A stretch of DNA of 64,000 bases, taken from NCBI GenBank assembly GCA_947475525.1, contig CANJMI010000004.1:124001-188000 (forward strand), in the 5' to 3' direction. The position numbers were made by a program, and so were the translations under genes. Each line of letters begins with the position of its first letter. The first letter of the stretch is position 1. The DNA comes from Polyangiaceae bacterium. GTDB taxonomy: Bacteria > Myxococcota_A > Polyangia > Polyangiales > Polyangiaceae. The notes beneath the pieces were generated by a model that worked only from the letters and a program-made list of their open reading frames with translations, was not told the origin of the DNA and made no database searches. Positions 30,850-42,525 of the stretch are shown here, one piece after another.

Positions 30850-32064
30850 TCAGTGATCGCACTCGCCGCCGATCATGTTGACCGACCCGAAGGTCGGTAC
30901 GACGTCGGGGAGCATCCCACCGACAATCATCGATTCCATTCCCTGCATCGTGGCGAAACACGGCGGCCGAATCCGCACGCGGTACGGGGTGCCGCTGCCG
31001 TCCGACACGATGTAGAACCCGAGCTCACCGTTGCCGGCCTCGGTGTAGGAGTAGCATTCGCCGGCGGGCACTTTGATGCCCTCCATGACGATCTTGAAGT
31101 GCTGAATCGTGCCCTCGATCGTCGAGTAGACCTCTTCCTTCGGGGGTAGCACGATGCGCGGGTCGTTGATGTTCACCGAGCCTTCGTCGGCCATCTGCTC
31201 GAGTGCCTGCTCGATGATTCGCACGCTCTGACGAATCTCTTCTTGGCGGCACATGAAGCGGTCGAAGTTGTCGCCGCTCGTGCCGACGGGAACGTCGAAC
31301 TCGTAGCGGTCGTAGGTCAGGTACGGGTGCACCTTGCGCACGTCGTAAGGGACGCCGGTCGAGCGCAGCACGACGCCGGTCCAGCCGAGGGCGATGGCAC
31401 GCTCCTTCGACATCCGGCCGACGTTCTCGACGCGGTCCAAGAAGATCCGGTTACCGAGCAAGAGTTTCTCACCGTCGTCGATCAACGCGCGCACGGCCGG
31501 CACCGCGGCACGCACCATCGCCTTGAAGTTCGGGGTGGGCTCGCTCGCCATGCCCCCGACGCGGCCGAAGCTGTGGGTCACCCGGGCGCCCGTCTCCTCT
31601 TCGAAGACGTCCCAGATGAGCTCACGGGCCTTGGCGAACCAGAGGAACGGGGTGAATGCGCCGAGCTCCATCGCCATCGCGCCGGAACACACCATGTGGT
31701 CACAGATGCGGGCGAGCTCACCGAGAATGACGCGGTAGTGTTGGCAGCGCTCGGGCACCGTCACGCCGAGCATTTTCTCGACGGCCAGCGCAAAACCGAC
31801 GTTGTTCAACATCGGGGAGGCGTAGTTCAAGCGGTCGACGTACGGGAACACCTGGGTCCACGTGCCGCGCTCGCACATTTTTTCGAAGCCGCGATGCAGG
31901 TAGCCAATCTGCACGTCGACTTTCGTTATCGTCTCGCCCGAAAGCTCGACCACCATCCGGACGGTGCCATGCATCGCCGGGTGTGCAGGTCCCATGTTGA
32001 CCTGCATCGGAGCGGAGGGGAACTCGAGTTCGCCCTCGTCCAATTCGATGTCCAGAGGTTCCAT
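30850..32064 (-). CDS. nuoD: NADH-quinone oxidoreductase subunit D (49-kDa)
   Basis: 404 residues, standard length and not fused to NuoC. GPAHPAMHGTVRM near the N-terminus and the conserved IGYLHRGFEKMCE, RLNYASPMLNN and C-terminal FATMQGMESMIVGGM are diagnostic. The subunit forms the quinone-reduction site with NuoB and NuoH, using the conserved His and Tyr. It starts 15 bases after nuoC and ends six bases before nuoG. Confidence 0.95.
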   Translation of the reverse strand: MEPLDIELDEGELEFPSAPMQVNMGPAHPAMHGTVRMVVELSGETITKVDVQIGYLHRGFEKMCERGTWTQVFPYVDRLNYASPMLNNVGFALAVEKMLGVTVPERCQHYRVILGELARICDHMVCSGAMAMELGAFTPFLWFAKARELIWDVFEEETGARVTHSFGRVGGMASEPTPNFKAMVRAAVPAVRALIDDGEKLLLGNRIFLDRVENVGRMSKERAIALGWTGVVLRSTGVPYDVRKVHPYLTYDRYEFDVPVGTSGDNFDRFMCRQEEIRQSVRIIEQALEQMADEGSVNINDPRIVLPPKEEVYSTIEGTIQHFKIVMEGIKVPAGECYSYTEAGNGELGFYIVSDGSGTPYRVRIRPPCFATMQGMESMIVGGMLPDVVPTFGSVNMIGGECDH

Positions 32065-32079
32065 CTCAGCTCGCCTCGC

Positions 32080-32670
32080 TCACTCGTCAGAAAATCCCAG
32101 GGCGTTGACTCGAGGCGCAACTCGGTCGTGCGTTTGACGACCGAACGGCATGCCCTCGTGCTCGTCGAACGGCGGCAGCTTGCCTACCGCCTCACTACGG
32201 TACTCAACCAGCGGCTGCGTCTGCTGCGCCGAGTAGTCTTTGCGCAGCGGAGAGCCCACGAACTCGGGGTACATCAGGATGCGCCGTAGGTCCGGGTGGC
32301 CGACAAAGTCGACGCCGAACATGTCGAAGCACTCGCGTTCGAACCAATTGGCCCCGACCCAAACCTTGCTCAGCGTGTCGATGGCCGGGGCATCCCCAAG
32401 GCGCGCCTTCAGACGCACACGATGCAGTTTTTCGATCGAGCGAACGTGAAGGACCACCTCGAACCGCGACTCGCGACGATTCAAGTAGTCGACCGCGGTG
32501 AGGTCGATGAAGTGATTCATCGCGCACTTGGGGTCGTCGCGCAGGAACGTGGCGATCTCCTGCCAGCGCGAAGGCTCGACGATGGCGGTGTCATCGCCGT
32601 GCTGGCTATGCGTCTCGAGGACGGCATCGCCGAACACCTCGCGCAGTCGCTGAAGGACTCGCGTGCTCAT
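32080..32670 (-). CDS. nuoC: NADH-quinone oxidoreductase subunit C (30-kDa)
   Basis: 196 residues. ESRFEVVLHVRS, WVGANWFERECFDMFGVDFVGHPDLRRILMYPEF is the family core (ERE..D..G). Its ATG overlaps the nuoB stop (ATGA). NuoC is a structural subunit that docks on NuoD in the peripheral arm. Confidence 0.94.
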   Translation of the reverse strand: MSTRVLQRLREVFGDAVLETHSQHGDDTAIVEPSRWQEIATFLRDDPKCAMNHFIDLTAVDYLNRRESRFEVVLHVRSIEKLHRVRLKARLGDAPAIDTLSKVWVGANWFERECFDMFGVDFVGHPDLRRILMYPEFVGSPLRKDYSAQQTQPLVEYRSEAVGKLPPFDEHEGMPFGRQTHDRVAPRVNALGFSDE

Positions 32671-33266
32671 GCCTTGCTCGTCCGCAGCTCGACGAGCCGG
32701 GTATGGGCGACGTCGCCCGAGTGCCCTGCCGCGAGGTCCGCGGCGACCTGGCGCGGGTCGGTGCGTGGCTTGACGATCCCAGCGGTGCGGTCACCGCGTT
32801 GAATCTTGTCTTGCAACAGCAGAAGGCCGTCGATCACGGACTCGGGGCGTGGAGGACAACCCGGAACGTAGACGTCGACGGGGATGACCTTGTCGATGCC
32901 CGCGAGGGTCGTGTAGTTGTCGTAAAAGCCGCCGCACGAAGCGCAGGTTCCGAATGCGAGCACGTATTTCGGGTCGGCCATCTGGTCATAGACGGTCTTC
33001 AGGATCGGCGCCTGGCGCTGCGTGATCGTACCGACGACCCAGAGAAGGTCCGCCTGGCGGGGCGAAAACCGCGGCGCCTCGGCTCCGAAGCGCGCCATGT
33101 CGAAGCGCGGACTCGCGAGCGCCATGAACTCCATCGCGCAGCACGCGGTCACGAACGGATACTGAAATAGCGAGTATTTCTTCGCCCAGTTCAGCATATC
33201 TTCGAGGCGGGTGGTCGCGAAGCCCTGCTCCGATCCCTCGAACACGTAGGATTGCGATTGGCTCAT
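32667..33266 (-). CDS. nuoB: NADH-quinone oxidoreductase subunit B (N2 cluster)
   Basis: 199 residues from the ATG at 33266, which overlaps the nuoA stop; an upstream GTG at 33275 is less likely. TACCAMEFMA (tandem Cys), GTCASCGG and VPGCPPRPE provide the four ligands of cluster N2, which donates electrons to quinone. Residues after the core (~35) form a divergent C-terminal tail. Confidence 0.95.
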   Translation of the reverse strand: MSQSQSYVFEGSEQGFATTRLEDMLNWAKKYSLFQYPFVTACCAMEFMALASPRFDMARFGAEAPRFSPRQADLLWVVGTITQRQAPILKTVYDQMADPKYVLAFGTCASCGGFYDNYTTLAGIDKVIPVDVYVPGCPPRPESVIDGLLLLQDKIQRGDRTAGIVKPRTDPRQVAADLAAGHSGDVAHTRLVELRTSKA

Positions 33267-33619
33267 TTTTCCCACTCCAGCGCGCCCTTTTTCCAGACGT
33301 AGGCGAGCAGTACGAAGACCACGAGAATGAACGATCCCATCGTCGCGAACCCCGACCAGCCGAGCGAACGAAACTCGACGGCCCAGGGGTAGATCATGAC
33401 CGCCTCGATGTCGAAAACGACGAAGAGGAGCGCGGTCATGTAGAATTTTACGCTTGGGCGCACGTCCCCCGAGCCCTCACCCAGGTGCCCGCATTCGAAC
33501 GGGTATTCCTTGGTGGGGTTGGGGTTCTTTGGGCCGAGGTAGGTGGTTGCCGTGAACATCCCGCCCGCTACGAGGGCCGCGAGGATGAACAGCAGCATGA
33601 CCGGGACGTAGGAGGCCAT
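33263..33619 (-). CDS. nuoA: NADH-quinone oxidoreductase subunit A
   Basis: 118 residues from ATG 33619 (MASYVPV). Three membrane helices and the conserved loop KEYPFECGHLGEGSG with PSVKFYMTALLFVVFDIEAVMIYPWA, including the loop Cys and the FDIE motif in helix 2, are diagnostic. It is the first gene of the nuoABCDGHI run; the promoter must lie within or before the 58 bases separating it from the upstream TPR-like gene on the same strand. Confidence 0.94.
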   Translation of the reverse strand: MASYVPVMLLFILAALVAGGMFTATTYLGPKNPNPTKEYPFECGHLGEGSGDVRPSVKFYMTALLFVVFDIEAVMIYPWAVEFRSLGWSGFATMGSFILVVFVLLAYVWKKGALEWEK

Positions 33620-33677
33620 GGACGGGAGTGGTTTCACACACGTAGGCCTCCGTGTCAATTGGAGGACGGACGTGAAA

Positions 33678-34990: not shown

Positions 34991-35581
34991 TCACTCCGCG
35001 ATCAGCGCGTCGACTTCCTTGGCGATTTTTTCGTCCTCGCCATCGGTATAGCCGCCGTGCACGTGCCGCACGATGCCCTTTTTGTCGACGATGTACGTCG
35101 TCGGCATTTTCGGGGGATGGTAGGCGCCCGCGGTCTTCTTCTCCCTGTCCCAGACGATGGGGAAGGTCACGTGAAGGTCTTCGGCGAACTTCTTGATGTC
35201 CGCGGCTTTCGCCTCGTCGGTGTCATCCTGGCTGACCGCGATGACGGCGAGCTTGCCGGCGTTCGTATCGACCACTTCCTGAAGCTTCGGGAAGGACTTC
35301 TTGCAGGGCTCGCAGAAGGTGCCCCAAAAGTCGACGATCGTGACGGTGCCCTTCGCCTCGACGAGGGTCTTCGGGCCGTCTCCGGCGATGTACTCACCGA
35401 ACACCTCGGGGGCGGCCTGTCCGACCAGCCCGGCAGCGTCGCTGCTGCCAGCGGTAGGCGACTTCGCGTCGCCCGCGACCTCCGTCGTCTTCGTGCACCC
35501 GACAAGCGAGACGCCCAAGAGGACGAGGCTCAGCTTGCCGACAATCGAATCAATCCTATTGGACACAACCTTCATCGACAT
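34991..35581 (-). CDS. TlpA/ResA-like thioredoxin-fold lipoprotein
   Basis: Signal peptide with lipobox VSLVGC, a short linker, then a thioredoxin domain with the active site WGTFCEPCKKSFP and the cis-Pro segment KMPTTYIVD. Periplasm-facing TlpA/ResA proteins reduce disulfides, often for cytochrome c or copper-site maturation. It is divergent, across a 98-base gap, from a run of genes encoding CX4CH and CxxCH proteins, DUF4266 and DUF3570. A thioredoxin is a common companion of that run, so a shared role is likely. Confidence 0.88.
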   Translation of the reverse strand: MSMKVVSNRIDSIVGKLSLVLLGVSLVGCTKTTEVAGDAKSPTAGSSDAAGLVGQAAPEVFGEYIAGDGPKTLVEAKGTVTIVDFWGTFCEPCKKSFPKLQEVVDTNAGKLAVIAVSQDDTDEAKAADIKKFAEDLHVTFPIVWDREKKTAGAYHPPKMPTTYIVDKKGIVRHVHGGYTDGEDEKIAKEVDALIAE

Positions 35582-35679
35582 TCGCTCCTTCGCACAGGTA
35601 CGCTACACGCTTCGTGGTCGAGCAATGCCCCGTCGTGAATCGGATTCGCGCGGAGGCCATCGCTCGAAGGATTTCGCAG

Positions 35680-36327
35680 ATGGGCTTACCCTCGTTCCCC
35701 TCCAACCGCCTAACGGAATCGCCAGGATGGCGCTTACAGGCGAAGTTCGCCGCGCTCGCCGTCGGAGCTGCTTTGGTAGGCGCTTGCCAAGATTTCACGG
35801 TGCGCTTCGGGCCTCCTAACAACTTGCGGCTTCGCGATTCGAAGAGCGTCGAGGCGTGTCCCGCGCCCCCCGGTGCGACCGGCGCCGTGTGTCCCGACTG
35901 GGCGACCAAGGTCTTCCCGGTACTCGACGGTGAAGCGAACCGGTGCACGAATGAGGCGTGTCACAGCGAAGGGAGCCCGAGCAAAGGCCTCGCGCTCTTC
36001 GCGGGGGACGCGGCAAAGACGTACGCGGCCATGGCGAAGTACAAAAACGCGGCGGGCAGGCCGTACGTTGTCGATGCGGAGCTCGGCGATCCGGAATTGC
36101 CCGCATACATGCTTTGCAACCTCACAGCGAACCCGCTCGTCGGCGCGCGCATGCCACTCGGTGAGGCGATGACGGCCGCAGATCTCGCGACCATCGGCGA
36201 CTGGGTCCTCTGTGGAATGAAGGAAGAAGGCGGCACGCCTCTCCCCAGTGGCGCGGGCGGCGCGGGCGGCAGCGCACCCTCTGCCACTACCGGCACGGGC
36301 GGCGCGGGCGGCGCGGGCGGCGCGTGA
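35680..36327 (+). CDS. cytochrome c-like lipoprotein with CX4CH motif
   Basis: The chosen ATG 35680 gives a lipoprotein signal ending in LVGAC; the frame is open further upstream. The domain carries a single CTNEACH motif, a CX4CH variant of the haem c site (CX4CH is known to bind haem in some cytochromes c3). The later MPLGEAMTAADLATIGDWVLCGM helix is typical of small cytochrome-like domains, with a possible Met ligand. The C-terminus is a Gly/Ala-rich tail of repeated GGAGGA. Haem binding is inferred. Confidence 0.72.
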   Translation: MGLPSFPSNRLTESPGWRLQAKFAALAVGAALVGACQDFTVRFGPPNNLRLRDSKSVEACPAPPGATGAVCPDWATKVFPVLDGEANRCTNEACHSEGSPSKGLALFAGDAAKTYAAMAKYKNAAGRPYVVDAELGDPELPAYMLCNLTANPLVGARMPLGEAMTAADLATIGDWVLCGMKEEGGTPLPSGAGGAGGSAPSATTGTGGAGGAGGA

Positions 36328-36416
36328 CGCGGCAGCGCGGGGCACGGTCGATTTCGATTGAGTTCGCCGGAGCCGTGCTACCCTTTTCTATGCGTGCGGA
36401 CCTTCGGAGAATCACC

Positions 36417-36656
36417 ATGACGAAACGAACCACCGGTAACCTTGTTCGCGGTCTCCTCACGCTGACGTTGCTTCCGATCGCCCTTGTGACGTCGACGGGT
36501 TGCGCGGCCGTGCAACCCTACGAGCGCGCGAAACTCGCCCACCCCACCATGTCGGCCGCGGATCTTGCTGGGCCCGGTGAGGAGCACCTGCGGGCGGTTC
36601 ACGAAGGTGCGGTCGGCGGCGGCACAGGTGCCGGTAGCGGCTGCGGCTGCAACTGA
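36417..36656 (+). CDS. DUF4266 small lipoprotein
   Basis: 79 residues from ATG 36417 with a CGGAGA ribosome-binding site. Lipobox STGC, then AAVQPYERAKLAHPTMS and a Gly-rich tail ending CGCN, exactly the DUF4266 pattern (conserved QPYER-K/G-LA block and terminal Cys-Gly-Cys-Asn). The family has no known biochemical role but is regularly encoded next to DUF3570 proteins, as here. The invariant terminal cysteines in an exported peptide suggest metal or redox binding or modification. Confidence 0.82.
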   Translation: MTKRTTGNLVRGLLTLTLLPIALVTSTGCAAVQPYERAKLAHPTMSAADLAGPGEEHLRAVHEGAVGGGTGAGSGCGCN

Positions 36657-36700
36657 ACCGCGCTGTCGTGAAACTCCTTGCTTAGGCCGCTTCGGTCCTC

Positions 36701-38839
36701 GTGAAGCTCGCACACCTCACGCTCGTCGCGTGCCTGATGGCGGCGCCCGTTGCGCTAACCGCAGCGGACGCGCTCGCGGGCGGAGCGAGTGACGAAGAGG
36801 TGCGCCCGCTGCTCGACGCGATCTACGAGTCGGAATACCGCGCGGGAAAGTTCAAGGACGGCCTCGAAAAGCTGGAAATCGCGAAGATTCTCTGCGAGGG
36901 CACCCTCTGCAGCCATGGCGTGAGAGCCCAGCTCTTCGTCGCAATCGGGACGATGCACGTGCGCCTCGGCAACACCCGTGGCGCGGCGGTCGCGTTCGCC
37001 ACAGCCGTGAAGGAAGACGCCGGCGCGGAGCTCCGCAAAGGCTCGGAGACGCCCGAAGTCTCGGCGGCGTTCGCAACCGCGAAACCCGCAGGCTCGGCCA
37101 CCCTTTCGCCCGACGACTGCCGCGCGAGCTATGCCGGCGCCCCGGCCCCTCGAGGTTGGCAGAACGGCGGAGCGGCGCACTGCTTCAACCTCGCGACACT
37201 GGCGGACCGGGCGGGCAAGCACCGCACCTGCGCCACCCATGCGCGCAAGGCGCTCGAGCTCGAGGACAACCCGAACGGTCGTGCGACGCTCGCGAAGTGC
37301 CTCGAAGCCGACAACAACTGGATCGAAGCTGCCGATGAGTGGGAGGAAGCGGCACGCCAGGCCCCGAAGACCTGGCAGAACGGCCTTGCGCAGCAAGCGC
37401 GCTACCGAGCCGATCAGTTGCGTCGACGAATCCCGGTGCTCGTGCTCGTTCCGCCTACCAATCAACCGGAAGGCTTCGCGGTCGAGCTCGACGGTTCACC
37501 CTTTCCGGTCGAGGCGCTCGGCTCCGAGATGCCGATGAACCCGGGCGAACACACGATCCTCGCGACTGGAAAACGCGGCGATCTTGCCTTGCGGTTCAAG
37601 CAGTCCGTGCGCCTCGAGAGCGGCGCAAACTTCCCGGTCGTGCTCGAGCTTGCCCCCTATTCGCCTGAAATCAAATGCCTCCTCGAGGCCCAGAATGCCG
37701 AGGGAATTGCCAAGTGCTTGAGCCGCGCGGACTCGGCCAGCAACATCACGACGCGCGTTCGCAGCGAGGCCAGCGGCTACCACGACACGATGCACGTTGA
37801 CGTGTTCTCGCCCTCGGTCAGCGTGAGCGCCGAGCACGTGACGGGCGGCTGGGGAATCGGCGCATCGATGCTGGTCGACATGGTGACAGCGGCGTCGGTC
37901 GACATCGTCGCAACGGCATCGCCGCGGTGGCGCGAGGTGCGCTGGGTTCCAGCTCTGAATGCCCATAAGCGTTTTAGCGACCTCGACGTCGGCGTCTCCG
38001 GCGGCTTCTCGCGCGAGCCGGATTATCTCGCGACCGACATCGCAGCGCGTGCCTCGCTCGACCTCGCGGACAAGACGATCACGCCGACGATCGTCTACGA
38101 TTTTTCGCACGACATCAACGCCAAGGCCAATACGCCCTGGGACGTTTTCTCCAAGCGGATAAACCGGCATTCGGTCACGATGGATCTGGGAGTCATCCTC
38201 ACCAAGTCCACGTTCGGGTCGCTGAGCTCGACGATGGTGTTCGAAAATGGCGACACGTCAAAACCGTACCGCCACATTCCGATGTTCGATCCGAAGGTCG
38301 CTCCGCTGATTCGGCCGGGCGAGATGACCGACACGGTAAACCTCTACCGTTTGGCCGAGCGACCGCTCGAACAACTGCCGACGTCGCGCAAGCGGTTCGC
38401 CATCGCAGCGCAGCTCGCGCAGCGCTTTTCTTCGTCGACGCTCCGCATCAGCCAGCGCCTTTACACCGATACCTGGACCCTCAAAGCCACGACGACCGAC
38501 GTGCGGTACATGGTCGACGTGACGAAGGATCTGCGTGTCTGGCCTCACGTTCGCTTTCACGCGCAGACCGGCACCAATTTTTACAAACTCGCGTACGAAG
38601 CGAGCGTCAACCCGGATGGCACGACCAACCTGCCCGTCTACCGCACCGGTGACCGCGAGCTCGGTCCGCTGCTCTCGGGCACGGGCGGCGCGGGGGCCCG
38701 TTACGATTTTGGCGGAAGGCACTCGTACGCCCTCAGCCTGAACGGCGACGTGATCTACACAAGCTTTCCGAAGACCCTCTTCACGAGCGATCGATGGGGT
38801 TACTTCGGCGCGCTCACCTTCGAGGCGACGTTCGAATGA
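36701..38839 (+). CDS. DUF3570 outer-membrane-type protein fused to TPR-like N-terminal domain
   Basis: Starts at GTG 36701 with a signal peptide ending near LAGGA. Residues ~25-240 are TPR-like helices; ~240-330 are a beta domain like PEGA (GFAVELDGSPF, then NPGEHTILATGK). From ~360 to the end (712) is DUF3570: VDVFSPSVSVSAEHVTGGWGIG, DIVATASPRWREVR, FSREPDYLA, with alternating beta-strands and a terminal Phe-containing strand TFEATFE like an outer-membrane barrel. The extra periplasmic half is unusual for DUF3570. It probably forms a pore or export partner for the DUF4266 lipoprotein. The stop overlaps the next ATG. Confidence 0.8.
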   Translation: MKLAHLTLVACLMAAPVALTAADALAGGASDEEVRPLLDAIYESEYRAGKFKDGLEKLEIAKILCEGTLCSHGVRAQLFVAIGTMHVRLGNTRGAAVAFATAVKEDAGAELRKGSETPEVSAAFATAKPAGSATLSPDDCRASYAGAPAPRGWQNGGAAHCFNLATLADRAGKHRTCATHARKALELEDNPNGRATLAKCLEADNNWIEAADEWEEAARQAPKTWQNGLAQQARYRADQLRRRIPVLVLVPPTNQPEGFAVELDGSPFPVEALGSEMPMNPGEHTILATGKRGDLALRFKQSVRLESGANFPVVLELAPYSPEIKCLLEAQNAEGIAKCLSRADSASNITTRVRSEASGYHDTMHVDVFSPSVSVSAEHVTGGWGIGASMLVDMVTAASVDIVATASPRWREVRWVPALNAHKRFSDLDVGVSGGFSREPDYLATDIAARASLDLADKTITPTIVYDFSHDINAKANTPWDVFSKRINRHSVTMDLGVILTKSTFGSLSSTMVFENGDTSKPYRHIPMFDPKVAPLIRPGEMTDTVNLYRLAERPLEQLPTSRKRFAIAAQLAQRFSSSTLRISQRLYTDTWTLKATTTDVRYMVDVTKDLRVWPHVRFHAQTGTNFYKLAYEASVNPDGTTNLPVYRTGDRELGPLLSGTGGAGARYDFGGRHSYALSLNGDVIYTSFPKTLFTSDRWGYFGALTFEATFE

Positions 38840-39453
38840 TGGCTATGGCGCGACGCTCGCGAACACGCCGACTCGAGGTCGCGTGCGCACTGCTGCTCTT
38901 CGGGCTCGGCTGCGGCGACCCTTACCGCGATCGTCTGCTCGATGGGCTTCCCGACGAGGACCCGAAGTTTCGACCAGGCGAACTCCACCGCCCTGGGCAA
39001 CCTTGCCTCGCATGCCACTCGGATTATGGAGGAGCTCCCGAGTTCTCTCTCGGCGGCACGATCTTCAGCGGCTCCGAGCCCACCGAGACGCCTTCGCTCC
39101 TCGGCGGCTACACCGTACGCGTCTACGACTCCGAAGGGCAGACGCGCGATTTATTGAGCAATTCATGCGGGAATTTCTACATTCGGCGCGCGGACTGGGA
39201 TCCCGCATTTCCCCTGCGCGCGGAGCTCTACGAAGACAACCCGGCGAAGCCGGGCAAGCTGATTCAGGTGACGGTCATGAGCTCGCGCATCGCGCGGGAG
39301 GGCTCGTGCGCAGGCTGTCACGTCGGGCATCGCTCACCGCTCTCGCCGGGCGCGGTTTACGTGCCGGGGACGACACCAGGCGCACCCTCGGACGCTTGCC
39401 CAACACCGTGGCTCGGGCCCGACCCGCGCGCCCCCGTACAAGGACTGAAATGA
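38836..39453 (+). CDS. lipoprotein with two CxxCH haem-type motifs
   Basis: Start ATG 38836 overlaps the upstream stop (ATGA). Lipobox LGC is followed by two motifs, CLACH and CAGCH, about 115 residues apart. Between them is a beta-rich stretch (GGYTVRVYDSEGQTRDLLSN) like carboxypeptidase-regulatory or Ig folds. Two bound haems c are inferred; haem attachment needs the Ccm system, which is not in the window. The 3' end overlaps the next CX4CH lipoprotein gene by four bases. Confidence 0.75.
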   Translation: MMAMARRSRTRRLEVACALLLFGLGCGDPYRDRLLDGLPDEDPKFRPGELHRPGQPCLACHSDYGGAPEFSLGGTIFSGSEPTETPSLLGGYTVRVYDSEGQTRDLLSNSCGNFYIRRADWDPAFPLRAELYEDNPAKPGKLIQVTVMSSRIAREGSCAGCHVGHRSPLSPGAVYVPGTTPGAPSDACPTPWLGPDPRAPVQGLK

Positions 39454-40067
39454 CGAAGCGGCTTCTCATCCTTCTCGGACTCGCCTTCGCTGCGACCGGC
39501 TGCCTCGAGGTACCCGGTCCCGGCGTCGGCGCATGCCCCCTTGATGTCGACACCGACGGCAACCTCGCGATCGCATCGTTTACCCCGGTGTCGCTCGTAC
39601 TCGAGCAGCGTTGCGGGTCGCTCGATTGCCACGGAAATCTCGCGCGACCGCTGCGCATCTACGGCGCGCGTGGGCTTAGGCACGCCCCGCTCTACGTCAT
39701 CGATGACAAGGGCAACCTCGTTCAGTCGCCCAACGCCTCGGTCTACATCGATCCGACGAAAGCGGAAGCCGATGGCAGCTACCCGGGTCCCGGAGGCTCC
39801 GCCACAAGCGAGGCCGAACGCAAAGAGACGGCGCGCGCAATCTGCGGCTTACAACCCGAGTTGATGCGCAAGGTCGTGCTCGAAGGGGGCGACCCCGAGA
39901 AGCTGCTGCTGCTCGCGAAGCCGCTGCAGCTCGAGAGCCACAAAGGCGCGAAGATCTTCGAACGCGGAAGCCTCGACTACGCGTGCATCACCTCGTGGCT
40001 GCACTCCAAACTGCCCGAGGGGGCCATCGATGTCGCGAGCTGCAACGAAACGCTGAAAAATCCCTGA
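39450..40067 (+). CDS. lipoprotein with CX4CH motif (cytochrome-like)
   Basis: ATG 39450 overlaps the previous stop (ATGA). Signal peptide with lipobox ATGC, then CGSLDCHGN, a CX4CH motif in the context VLEQRCGSLDCHG that is common in exported cytochrome-like proteins. Two further cysteines (CGLQ, DYACITSWL) may form a disulfide. It ends the five-gene plus-strand run and is convergent with skp across nine bases. Confidence 0.75.
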   Translation: MTKRLLILLGLAFAATGCLEVPGPGVGACPLDVDTDGNLAIASFTPVSLVLEQRCGSLDCHGNLARPLRIYGARGLRHAPLYVIDDKGNLVQSPNASVYIDPTKAEADGSYPGPGGSATSEAERKETARAICGLQPELMRKVVLEGGDPEKLLLLAKPLQLESHKGAKIFERGSLDYACITSWLHSKLPEGAIDVASCNETLKNP

Positions 40068-40076
40068 CGGCCGCGC

Positions 40077-40616
40077 TCAGTTCTTGGGCGGCCCGGGGGG
40101 TGCGTCTTCGCCCGTATCACCCGAATTGAAGGTCTGCACGACCATATCGGTGAGGTCGAGGTCGCTGCGTGCGAAAGGCACGGCCGCCTTGTCGACGACA
40201 AGGTCGAAGCCCTTGCGGCCCGCGACGCGACGGATCGCGCCGAACATCTTTTGCATGATCGGACCCGTCAGCTCCTGCTGCTTGCCGGCGAGCTCCTTAT
40301 TGTATTGGATGAAGCGCGTCTGCACATCGAGCATGCGGCGCTGCCAATGTTCCGTGCGACGCTGGAACGCGGCGCGAGAGAGAATGGCAGCCTGCTTACG
40401 CAAGTCGTCTTGTTCCTTCTGGAGAGCCTCCTGCAAGCCGTCGAGCTCACCCTGGCGCTTCTTCGTGAAGTTTTGCAACGTGGCGGCGGCGCGCATTCCC
40501 TCCTCGGTCTGAAGGAGCGCGCGCTGCAAGTCGACCGTCGCGACGTTCGTCTCGGCCAATGCCGTGCCGACGAACGTAAACACGGCCAGCGCGACGAGCG
40601 ATCGGAGCGCGATCAC
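40077..40616 (-). CDS. periplasmic chaperone Skp/OmpH family
   Basis: 179 residues: signal peptide ending in TALA, then NVATVDLQRALLQTEEG and a long coiled coil (about 40-110), then the compact C-terminal KGFDLVVDKAAV. This is the Skp jellyfish architecture that escorts outer-membrane proteins across the periplasm. GTG start overlaps the stop of the upstream aminotransferase gene (GTGA), so the two are co-translated. Confidence 0.88.
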   Translation of the reverse strand: MIALRSLVALAVFTFVGTALAETNVATVDLQRALLQTEEGMRAAATLQNFTKKRQGELDGLQEALQKEQDDLRKQAAILSRAAFQRRTEHWQRRMLDVQTRFIQYNKELAGKQQELTGPIMQKMFGAIRRVAGRKGFDLVVDKAAVPFARSDLDLTDMVVQTFNSGDTGEDAPPGPPKN

Positions 40617-42280
40617 GAGATGAGCCCGAACTTCTTACCGACCTTCTCGAACGCGACGAGCGCCTGATCGAGATGCGAACGCTCGTGGGTCGCCATGTAG
40701 CTCGTGCGGAGCACCTGCTGCTTCGGGGGTACGCCCGGCGTGATGAACGGGTTGACGTAAATGCCGTGGTCGTCGAGGAGCGACTTCCACATCATCACCG
40801 TGCGTAGGTCGTCGCGAACGTAGATCGGGATGACGGCGGACTGGGTCGTCCCGAGCTCGAAGCCAAGCTTGGTAAGCTCATCGCGCATGTAGGTGAAGTT
40901 CTCCCGGAGCTTCTCCTGGCGCCAAGGCTCCTCTTCCATCAATTCCAGTGATTTCATTGCCGCGGCGACACAGGGTGGTGCCGCACTCGCCGCGAAAAGG
41001 AAGCTTGATGCGAAGTGCTGGATGTAATCGAGCACCTTGCGCTCGCCGACGAGCCAGCCGCCAATCGAAGCGAGCGATTTGGAGAAAGTACCGCCGATAA
41101 GATCGACCTCGTCCTGCAGCCCATACATCGCCGCGGTGCCGCGTCCGCCGGGACCGATGACCCCGAGCGCATGGGCGTCGTCGACCATGATGCGAGCGCG
41201 GTGTTTCTTCACCACGGGGACGAGCTCATCGAGCTTCGCTATTTCGCCTTGCGCGCTGAACACGCCGTCCGTGATGACGAGCGCGCCTTCGGCATCGTCG
41301 AGCTCGGAGAGGGCCTTGTCGAGGGACTCGGCGCTGTTGTGGCGGTAGCGCACCATGCGAGCGCCCGCGGTCTGGGCGAGCCGGACGCCGTCGTAGATCG
41401 AGGCGTGGTCGTCTTTGTCGATCATCGCGACGCTTTGTTTGTTCGCGAGCAACGCGGAGATCGTGGCGATGTTGACCTGGTAGCCCGTGGTGAAGACCAG
41501 GCCGGCTTCTTTGCCGTGGTAGGCCGCAAGCCGCGCTTCGAGCTCGTTGTGGAGTCGCATCGAACCGTTGACGAGGCGCGAGCCGGTCATGCTCGTTCCA
41601 AACTTGTCGATGGCGTCGCGTGCGGCCTGACGGACACGCGGGTCGGTGGTCAAGCCGAGGTAGTTGTTCGAGCCAAGCATGATGACTTCGCGGCCCTCGA
41701 TCTCGGCGACCGGACCGTTGTTGCGGTCGAGCGGTCGGAAGAACGGATACACGCCCATTTTTCGCGCGTTGTCGGCAGCGGTGAACTTGAAGCACTTGTC
41801 GAAGACGTCTTTGCCGCCGACCTTCGAGATTGCAACACGCTGCGCCATCGCGCGAGCGAGCCTGGCTTCGGCGGCCTTGCGACGTTCTTCCGGTGAGCGC
41901 GTTTTTGATTCCGCACCGGACGAAGGGTCGTCGACGAGCGCGGCGGCAGGCTCCGTCGCCTCGTCGTCATCCTCAACCACCACGGCCTTCGCGCGGGCTG
42001 TCGGGGTAGGCCCACTTCGACCGATGCCGATGTCCTCATCAGCGAGCAAGCTCTGGTCGAGGACCGGCATCTCGTGGCCCGAAACAAGCACGCGGAGAGC
42101 CTCTTTCGCGAGCCCGGAGGCCTCTTCGACGCGCTGCCGAGCCTCCATCACGCCGGTCGCGAAGCGCATCACGCGGTCATTGCTGACGAGTCGCATCACC
42201 GTGGGGGTCGCGAGATCTTTGCCGCGGCCGAGGAGGTCTTTCACGCCGATCATGGCTGGGTCTTTGTTCGCATGTCCCAT
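40613..42280 (-). CDS. class II aminotransferase-fold enzyme, serine palmitoyltransferase-like (alpha-oxoamine synthase)
   Basis: The C-terminal ~380 residues are a full alpha-oxoamine synthase: LGSNNYLGL, GTSMTGSRLVNGS, DDAHALGVIGPGGRG and the PLP-binding Lys in TFSKSLASIGG. Such enzymes condense an amino acid with an acyl-CoA; in this phylum serine palmitoyltransferase for sphingolipid synthesis is the likeliest member, with 2-amino-3-ketobutyrate ligase or AONS as alternatives. An N-terminal extension of ~170 residues, partly acidic and low in complexity, is unusual. ATG 42280 is preferred because the frame upstream runs into the duplicated relic at 42341. Overlaps skp. Confidence 0.85.
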   Translation of the reverse strand: MGHANKDPAMIGVKDLLGRGKDLATPTVMRLVSNDRVMRFATGVMEARQRVEEASGLAKEALRVLVSGHEMPVLDQSLLADEDIGIGRSGPTPTARAKAVVVEDDDEATEPAAALVDDPSSGAESKTRSPEERRKAAEARLARAMAQRVAISKVGGKDVFDKCFKFTAADNARKMGVYPFFRPLDRNNGPVAEIEGREVIMLGSNNYLGLTTDPRVRQAARDAIDKFGTSMTGSRLVNGSMRLHNELEARLAAYHGKEAGLVFTTGYQVNIATISALLANKQSVAMIDKDDHASIYDGVRLAQTAGARMVRYRHNSAESLDKALSELDDAEGALVITDGVFSAQGEIAKLDELVPVVKKHRARIMVDDAHALGVIGPGGRGTAAMYGLQDEVDLIGGTFSKSLASIGGWLVGERKVLDYIQHFASSFLFAASAAPPCVAAAMKSLELMEEEPWRQEKLRENFTYMRDELTKLGFELGTTQSAVIPIYVRDDLRTVMMWKSLLDDHGIYVNPFITPGVPPKQQVLRTSYMATHERSHLDQALVAFEKVGKKFGLIS

Positions 42281-42340
42281 CGATGTCAACTTCACCGCAC
42301 CGAGTGCCAGGAAAGCTCGCCCGGGGAGCCCGCGAGCGAC

Positions 42341-42525
42341 GCCGCAAACATTGCGAGGCTGACGTCGCAAACTAGAAAATGTTTTCATGAGTGCATCCCG
42401 TGAAACGCGTTTGGCTCGGCGACGATCAAGCAGATCTGCGGCGCGTCTTGCGGGCGTTTCTCACGCGACAGGGCCGAGCAAAAGACAAGGTCAGCCGGCG
42501 CGAGAAGAGCGCGGCGCGAGTCTGA
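42341..42525 (+). pseudogene. dead copy of the 5' end of an NtrC-type response regulator gene
   Basis: Bases 42341-42474 match 55136-55270 closely with a few single-base gaps, covering ~60 bases of leader and the first codons of the regulator gene at 55196. From GTG 42400 the frame reads VKRVWLGDDQADLRRVLRAF, against [20 protein letters not shown] in the intact gene. Similarity stops after about 25 codons, and a TGA ends the frame at 42525. No receiver core or AAA+ domain follows; the relic runs into the 3' end of the LysR gene. Confidence 0.85.

Follow-up and report, generated by a model that had tools for sequence, protein, structure and literature searches.

What might a DUF3570/DUF4266 gene cluster do when it lacks the strict flavin attachment sites and the linked flavin transferase of its relatives? 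The question is raised by a 64,000-nucleotide stretch of DNA from a Polyangiaceae bacterium (assembly GCA_947475525.1, contig CANJMI010000004.1, positions 124,001 to 188,000; hereafter the window), which carries a six-gene module centered on these two families. DUF3570 is a substrate of the flavin transferase ApbE and is flavinylated at two [S/T]GA[S/T] motifs (Meheust et al. 2021, PMC8238504). Published DUF3570 clusters also contain ApbE, a thioredoxin-like protein, DUF4266 and often DsbD, in some cases with an iron transporter, and their function is uncertain (PMC8238504). We give about an even chance to the answer that the module is an outer-membrane electron-transfer system derived from this flavin system, equipped with haem lipoproteins and retaining degenerate flavin sites that are probably unused. 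Our results support a redox module of this descent, in which haem lipoproteins were recruited as the flavin sites decayed. Haem attachment, complex formation and electron flow at or across the outer membrane, together with its direction and substrate, we infer.

An earlier account of this DNA, made from its letters alone and called here the sequence-only reading, had described six genes, two of whose junctions overlap by four bases. All were verified at 34991-40067, with one divergent gene on the minus strand followed by five on the plus strand:

34991..35581, minus strand: ResA/TlpA-like thioredoxin lipoprotein with active site CEPC (Pfam AhpC-TSA, 6.1e-20; best NCBIfam relative ResA, 2.6e-23)
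35680..36327, plus strand: LpA, a lipoprotein with a single CX4CH motif (nucleotides 35944-35964) and a long Gly/Ala tail; ATG 35680 is the better start
36417..36656, plus strand: small DUF4266 lipoprotein with C-terminal GCGCN (nucleotides 36639-36653; PF14086, 1.4e-12, above cut-off)
36701..38839, plus strand: TPR-DUF3570 fusion of 712 residues with a signal peptide (PF12094, 9.7e-17, above cut-off)
37877..37921, plus strand: degenerate tandem flavinylation motif DMVTAASVDIVATAS, residues 393-407 of the fusion, aligning with both [ST]GA[ST] sites of canonical DUF3570
38836..39453, plus strand: LpB, a lipoprotein with two CXXCH motifs (nucleotides 39004-39018 and 39307-39321) flanking a predicted transthyretin/CarboxypepD_reg-like beta sandwich
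39450..40067, plus strand: LpC, a lipoprotein with a CX4CH motif (CGSLDCH, nucleotides 39612-39632; residues C55, C60 and H61) and a distal H164

The overlaps, between DUF3570 and LpB (38836-38839) and between LpB and LpC (39450-39453), are 4 bp each and read ATGA.

The gene set is a real, conserved module and not a chance arrangement, because its order recurs in a paralogous cluster elsewhere in the genome and, in other species, at 41 loci. These further loci came from a search of named genomes whose titles were Myxococcota, Myxococcales, Polyangia or Deltaproteobacteria, and their gene content was scored by profile searches of six-frame translations, flanks included. LpB was present in 40/41 and LpC in 39/41, and DUF3570 together with both lipoproteins in 39/41, the missing copies falling on contigs that break off within the cluster; DUF4266 was found in 27/41, LpA in 23/41 and a TlpA relative within the flanks in 10/41. 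The paralogous cluster, on contig C18, carries LpA, TPR-DUF3570, LpB and LpC in identical order without TlpA or DUF4266, and paralogous pairs share 29-39% identity. In the family to which the window genome belongs, 59 strong LpB relatives were counted, and 53 of them have a DUF3570 no more than 4 kb away. Conservation of the gene set in related genomes, which the sequence-only reading had named as a check, is thus borne out, while the fusion of a TPR half to DUF3570, which it had singled out as unusual, is instead a feature of the clade (21 loci read). DUF4266 ends in GCGCN in 28/28 sequences and is missing from a whole sub-clade whose members include the C18 paralogue, Polyangium and one Minicystis copy; it is therefore the dispensable part of the module. 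Among the carriers of the haem-bearing form are Minicystis rosea DSM 24000 and Polyangium fumosum DSM 14668.

A search for other conserved neighbors of these loci yielded nothing beyond synteny among near relatives (skp, KBL), kinases and regulators of wide occurrence, and a DUF2271 at four loci. In some loci a separate TPR gene lies 3' of LpC. We dropped the idea that the fused half is split off there as a gene of its own and make no claim for it, because proteins of this TPR/PEGA family abound in these genomes and two also lie upstream of the paralogue in locus L005. LpB itself is part of a larger Polyangia family with two CXXCH motifs and a transthyretin-like middle, many of whose weaker members lie far from any DUF3570.

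The flavin sites set the window's clade apart from its relatives. PF12094 occurs in 137/377 Myxococcota genomes, and the 20 best-scoring DUF3570 loci, read with their flanks, served as the canonical set. In these, DUF4266, DUF3570 and ApbE follow one another in that order in 20/20 loci, with a thioredoxin ahead in nearly all; both strict motifs are kept in 18 and one motif in the other two. LpA, LpB and LpC occur in 0/20. In the window protein the two [ST]GA[ST] sites are replaced by TAAS and ATAS, and glycine is absent from both sites in all 38 degenerate-clade sequences (0/38 at either), the replacement at site 2 being mostly Thr. ApbE lies near the module in just 1 of the 41 loci, over 4 kb away. 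Two simpler descriptions of the module were rejected: flavinylation at a strict motif, as neither the window protein nor its paralogue contains [ST]GA[ST], and an ApbE within the cluster, as the single copy in the genome lies on a different contig (C1). The sequence-only reading had overlooked the published flavinylation of DUF3570 and the absence here of ApbE and of strict flavin sites.

Beside its degenerate sites the clade has a set of lipoproteins with haem-type motifs. Judged from alignments, these motifs are invariant across the families, which supports the sequence-only reading on this point. LpB, LpC and LpA are predicted carriers of two c-type haems, one and one, respectively. In LpB both CXXCH motifs are invariant in 41 aligned sequences and their middle residues are free. 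Weak Pfam matches to CarboxypepD_reg (14/41 members) and Cytochrome_C7 (30/41) were obtained, with Cytochrome_C7 or Paired_CXXCH in most members. The LpB model places a beta sandwich between the two motifs (mean predicted local distance difference test score (pLDDT) 77.8, core above 90). Foldseek with this model returned nothing below E 0.001; in VIA-align it showed a weak likeness to transthyretin and carboxypeptidase-D domains (Z 5.0-5.6), in agreement with the CarboxypepD_reg matches. An alignment of 20 LpA sequences contains CX4-5CH followed by an invariant MP and W, the order found in mono-haem c-type cytochromes. In LpC, C55, C60, H61 and H164 are invariant in 39 sequences. The CX4CH motif carries haem c in MmcA, as shown by mass spectrometry (PMC11024163), and three cytochrome c assembly proteins are encoded in the genome.

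The same motifs could be read differently, with the CGCN tail and the CX4CH motifs chelating copper or iron rather than carrying haem. The sequence CG[ST]LDCHG is kept in most LpC members, a conservation beyond the needs of haem alone, and the LpA motif varies from CX4CH to CX5CH. Nonetheless, the plain CXXCH motifs of LpB with their free middle residues resemble those of c-type cytochromes, the order of elements in LpA is that of mono-haem cytochromes, and no metal transporter was recognized in the conserved neighborhood. We consider metal handling improbable. The sequence-only reading had left electron and metal handling side by side; the redox part is the better founded of the two because flavinylation of DUF3570 by ApbE is published (PMC8238504), and no evidence was found for the metal part.

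CX4CH proteins resembling LpC also occur near DUF3570 in other Myxococcota lineages (loci L114, L115, L117 and L170), and these looser relatives have free middle residues. In L107 (genome G120), two consecutive proteins of about 500 residues, each with an N-terminal CXXCH and a later CX4CH, are encoded about 0.1-3 kb downstream of a degenerate DUF3570.

Where such carriers would act depends on the DUF3570 protein. An AlphaFold model built on a 66-row alignment (mean pLDDT 91.4) consists of TPR helices at 31-243, a small beta domain at 246-314 and barrel strands at 349-711. On this model the DUF3570 half is predicted with high confidence to be an outer-membrane barrel of 16 strands, a number counted from the modeled secondary structure in which strand 13 is irregular, and the TPR half is predicted to be periplasmic. 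The long loops all have odd numbers, the even ones being uniformly short (2-6 residues); a barrel with both its ends in the periplasm should show this pattern. The degenerate flavin motif sits in the loop between strands 3 and 4 (396-411; residues 403-406 have low confidence) and therefore, by strand parity, would lie on the outer side or be folded inward. VIA-align matched the model to outer-membrane barrels at Z 16-22, with BamA at 22.0 (275 residues, 3.1 A), PgaA at 19.9 (259 residues, 3.7 A), PelB at 19.8, and BcsC and CymA each at 18.2. Matches of this kind indicate an outer-membrane barrel, not a function. By sequence, the match of the window protein spans only positions 99-390 of the 427 in PF12094, so that the canonical N-terminal part is unmatched, and the TPR half, though plain in the model, falls under the Pfam cut-off (TPR_2, 2.2e-5; 24.7 bits vs 27). 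Sequence profiles of LpA, LpB, LpC and DUF3570 found no convincing relative in the PDB. Overall, the sequence-only interpretation is partly supported; on the sequence-based points it had itself named as decisive, neither a lack of conservation in related genomes nor a DUF3570 half predicted not to be a barrel was found.

The fold raises the further possibility that the protein exports a polymer or polysaccharide in the manner of PgaA, BcsC and PelB, with the lipoproteins as accessories. These channels share the layout of the window model, a periplasmic TPR region followed by a 16-strand barrel, and are among its best matches (Z 18-20). Unrelated porins such as CymA, OmpG and OmpC reach similar barrel scores, however, and many relatives that lack the TPR half still keep LpB and LpC. 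The gene company also differs, with no polysaccharide synthase recognized beside the module. There is no detectable sequence relationship to the window protein, for which a Pfam scan up to E 10 returned DUF3570 and TPR only and no PgaA, BcsC or PelB family. As DUF3570 is moreover a known redox protein, a role in export seems very unlikely.

Between the canonical and the window-like clusters lies an intermediate group. In its members the first motif is still strict (DIVSGAS or DAVSGAT, for example) and the second has lost its glycine; DUF4266 is present, and no ApbE is found within about 6 kb. Several have a CXnCH lipoprotein (n = 5 to 7; CX5CH or similar) upstream of DUF4266. In a tree of 129 barrels the canonical, one-motif and degenerate groups separate, and LpB occurs only in the degenerate group; the tree was made by a quick method with Shimodaira-Hasegawa-like approximate likelihood ratio test (SH-aLRT) support only and speaks for shallow grouping, not deep order. 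From these groups we tentatively propose, as a scenario we regard as rather less than probable, a stepwise exchange of flavins for haem lipoproteins in Myxococcota around a DUF3570 that serves as an outer-membrane conduit, with flavins on a surface-side or lumenal loop. The stages would run from two flavin sites with linked ApbE, through one site without linked ApbE, to as many as four haems with neither site left in strict form.

In the electron-transfer module that we favor, the parts could be arranged as follows. Canonical relatives would carry two flavin mononucleotides on the strand 3-4 loop, which would either face outward or fold into the lumen. In the window's clade these attachment sites have degenerated, and LpB, LpC and LpA, encoded in the same operon, would supply the redox centers. 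The fused TPR half may hold periplasmic partners. The probable task of the ResA-like thioredoxin is to maintain the reduced state of the DUF4266 CXC tail, of the apocytochrome cysteines, or of both.

Several observations weigh against this arrangement, and most concern the possibility that the flavins are still there. In the 38 degenerate-clade sequences the consensus of the tandem motif is D-x-x-[ST]-[ATN]-A-S-x-D-x-x-x-x-A-[ST], with D393, A398, S399, D401 and A406 invariant and S407 always Ser or Thr. ApbE recognizes D-x-x-[ST]-G-A-[ST]; in one tested protein changing Gly to Ala left about half of the flavinylation and changing the acceptor abolished it (review PMC12052999). Since Asp, Ala and the acceptor Ser/Thr are invariant, and loss of the glycine to Ala only halves the reaction, the flavins may persist. 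In L114 and L115, two loci from outside the lineage of the window, ApbE adjoins a DUF3570 that lacks glycine at both motifs. In genomes of the order without FMN_bind, ApbE is found in 37/37 with DUF3570 vs 6/17 without it. The haem side has weak points as well: LpA and LpC match no Pfam family, cytochrome families included, LpC also has no PDB relative, and no multihaem protein able to span the barrel is encoded in the cluster, where a module protein has at most two CXXCH motifs.

A hybrid would accommodate the first of these points, with the degenerate sites (D-x-x-[ST]-[ATN]-A-S) still flavinylated by an unlinked ApbE and the haem lipoproteins feeding or draining the flavins. The sole ApbE of the window genome is an intact lipoprotein beside hemE (contig C1:208944-209795; L036:8858-10060, minus strand). 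It is unexplained, because none of the other known ApbE substrates sought in the genome (FMN_bind, DUF2271 and NqrB/RnfD) was found. Across the order ApbE also tracks DUF3570 (p = 1.3e-7, or 1e-6 when counted by genus, and 0.007 for the genera of the window's own family). It is present in 50/50 DUF3570-bearing genomes vs 10/21 without it. The counts include genomes also holding a one-motif DUF3570, are not independent, and handle kinship by the genus-level count only. Of the 362 columns, 37 are fully invariant and five of these fall in the 15 motif positions (hypergeometric p = 0.012; columns not independent). The hybrid must nevertheless contend with the loss of glycine from both sites in every sequence, and six genomes that have neither DUF3570 nor FMN_bind still have ApbE, which must therefore have some other substrate. 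In addition, genome G328 (95% complete), in which no ApbE was detected, encodes a DUF3570 with DIVSSASVDVVTNAT, one of its six DUF3570 matches, showing the same Asp-Ala-Ser/Thr skeleton; the Asp-Ala-Ser skeleton can therefore persist without ApbE. Taken together, the alignments describe a flavin motif that appears weakened, not plainly dead, and we regard the hybrid as possible, if fairly unlikely.

DUF2271, the second newly described ApbE substrate, adjoins LpB or DUF4266/DUF3570 in four loci, including that of Minicystis rosea, each time with an intact VDAVTGAT or VDAITGAT site:

L068:5321-6637, L069:3891-4598, L072:3115-3924 and L074:8992-9801: DUF2271 proteins with intact site

This cluster-borne substrate counts among the points in favor of the hybrid, and it would also fit a flavin that has moved.

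Compared with the published DUF3570/DUF4266 flavin clusters (PMC8238504), the window's module shares a homologous DUF3570, a DUF4266 with a CXC tail, a thioredoxin-like gene and the order DUF4266-DUF3570. It differs in lacking a cluster ApbE and a glycine at either site, in the divergent orientation of its thioredoxin, and in the addition of three haem-motif lipoproteins and of a TPR half fused to the barrel. A cytochrome joined to a porin has a precedent in Cyc2, which is a fused cytochrome-porin. In the Pcc and Mtr conduits, as here, an outer-membrane barrel is encoded alongside c-type cytochromes that include one or more lipoproteins (PMC4245776), haem being predicted in the present case. 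Unlike those systems, the module described here has no multihaem protein and at most four predicted haems, spread over three lipoproteins, and no sequence relationship of its barrel to Pcc, Mtr or Cyc2 porins was seen. Exchange of flavin and cytochrome domains has been described in fumarate-reductase-like enzymes and alcohol oxidases (PMC8238504), where related lineages likewise use covalent flavin in one case and haem in the other with a shared core protein; here, in contrast, that core is predicted to be a barrel of the outer membrane, and intermediate states were observed.

The module may record one type of electron carrier replacing or joining another. If the stepwise exchange is true, it would show by what route redox carriers of one class give way to those of another in the cell envelope while the barrel stays the same. 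Flavinylated DUF3570 was already known, its place and task were not, and in the confident 16-strand model the flavin sites reported in the literature fall on a loop of a barrel in the outer membrane. The flavin-only, intermediate and haem-bearing clusters of myxobacteria constitute a natural test of the role of the flavin, and since Minicystis rosea and Polyangium fumosum are named culture-collection strains with the haem-bearing form, the proposal is testable in culture.

In the window, the module is flanked by nuoABCD and a TPR protein (30850-33658) on one side and by skp/ompH and a KBL-type synthase (40077-42388) on the other. This nuo- and skp-side synteny recurs in L038 and partly in L037, L039 and L041.

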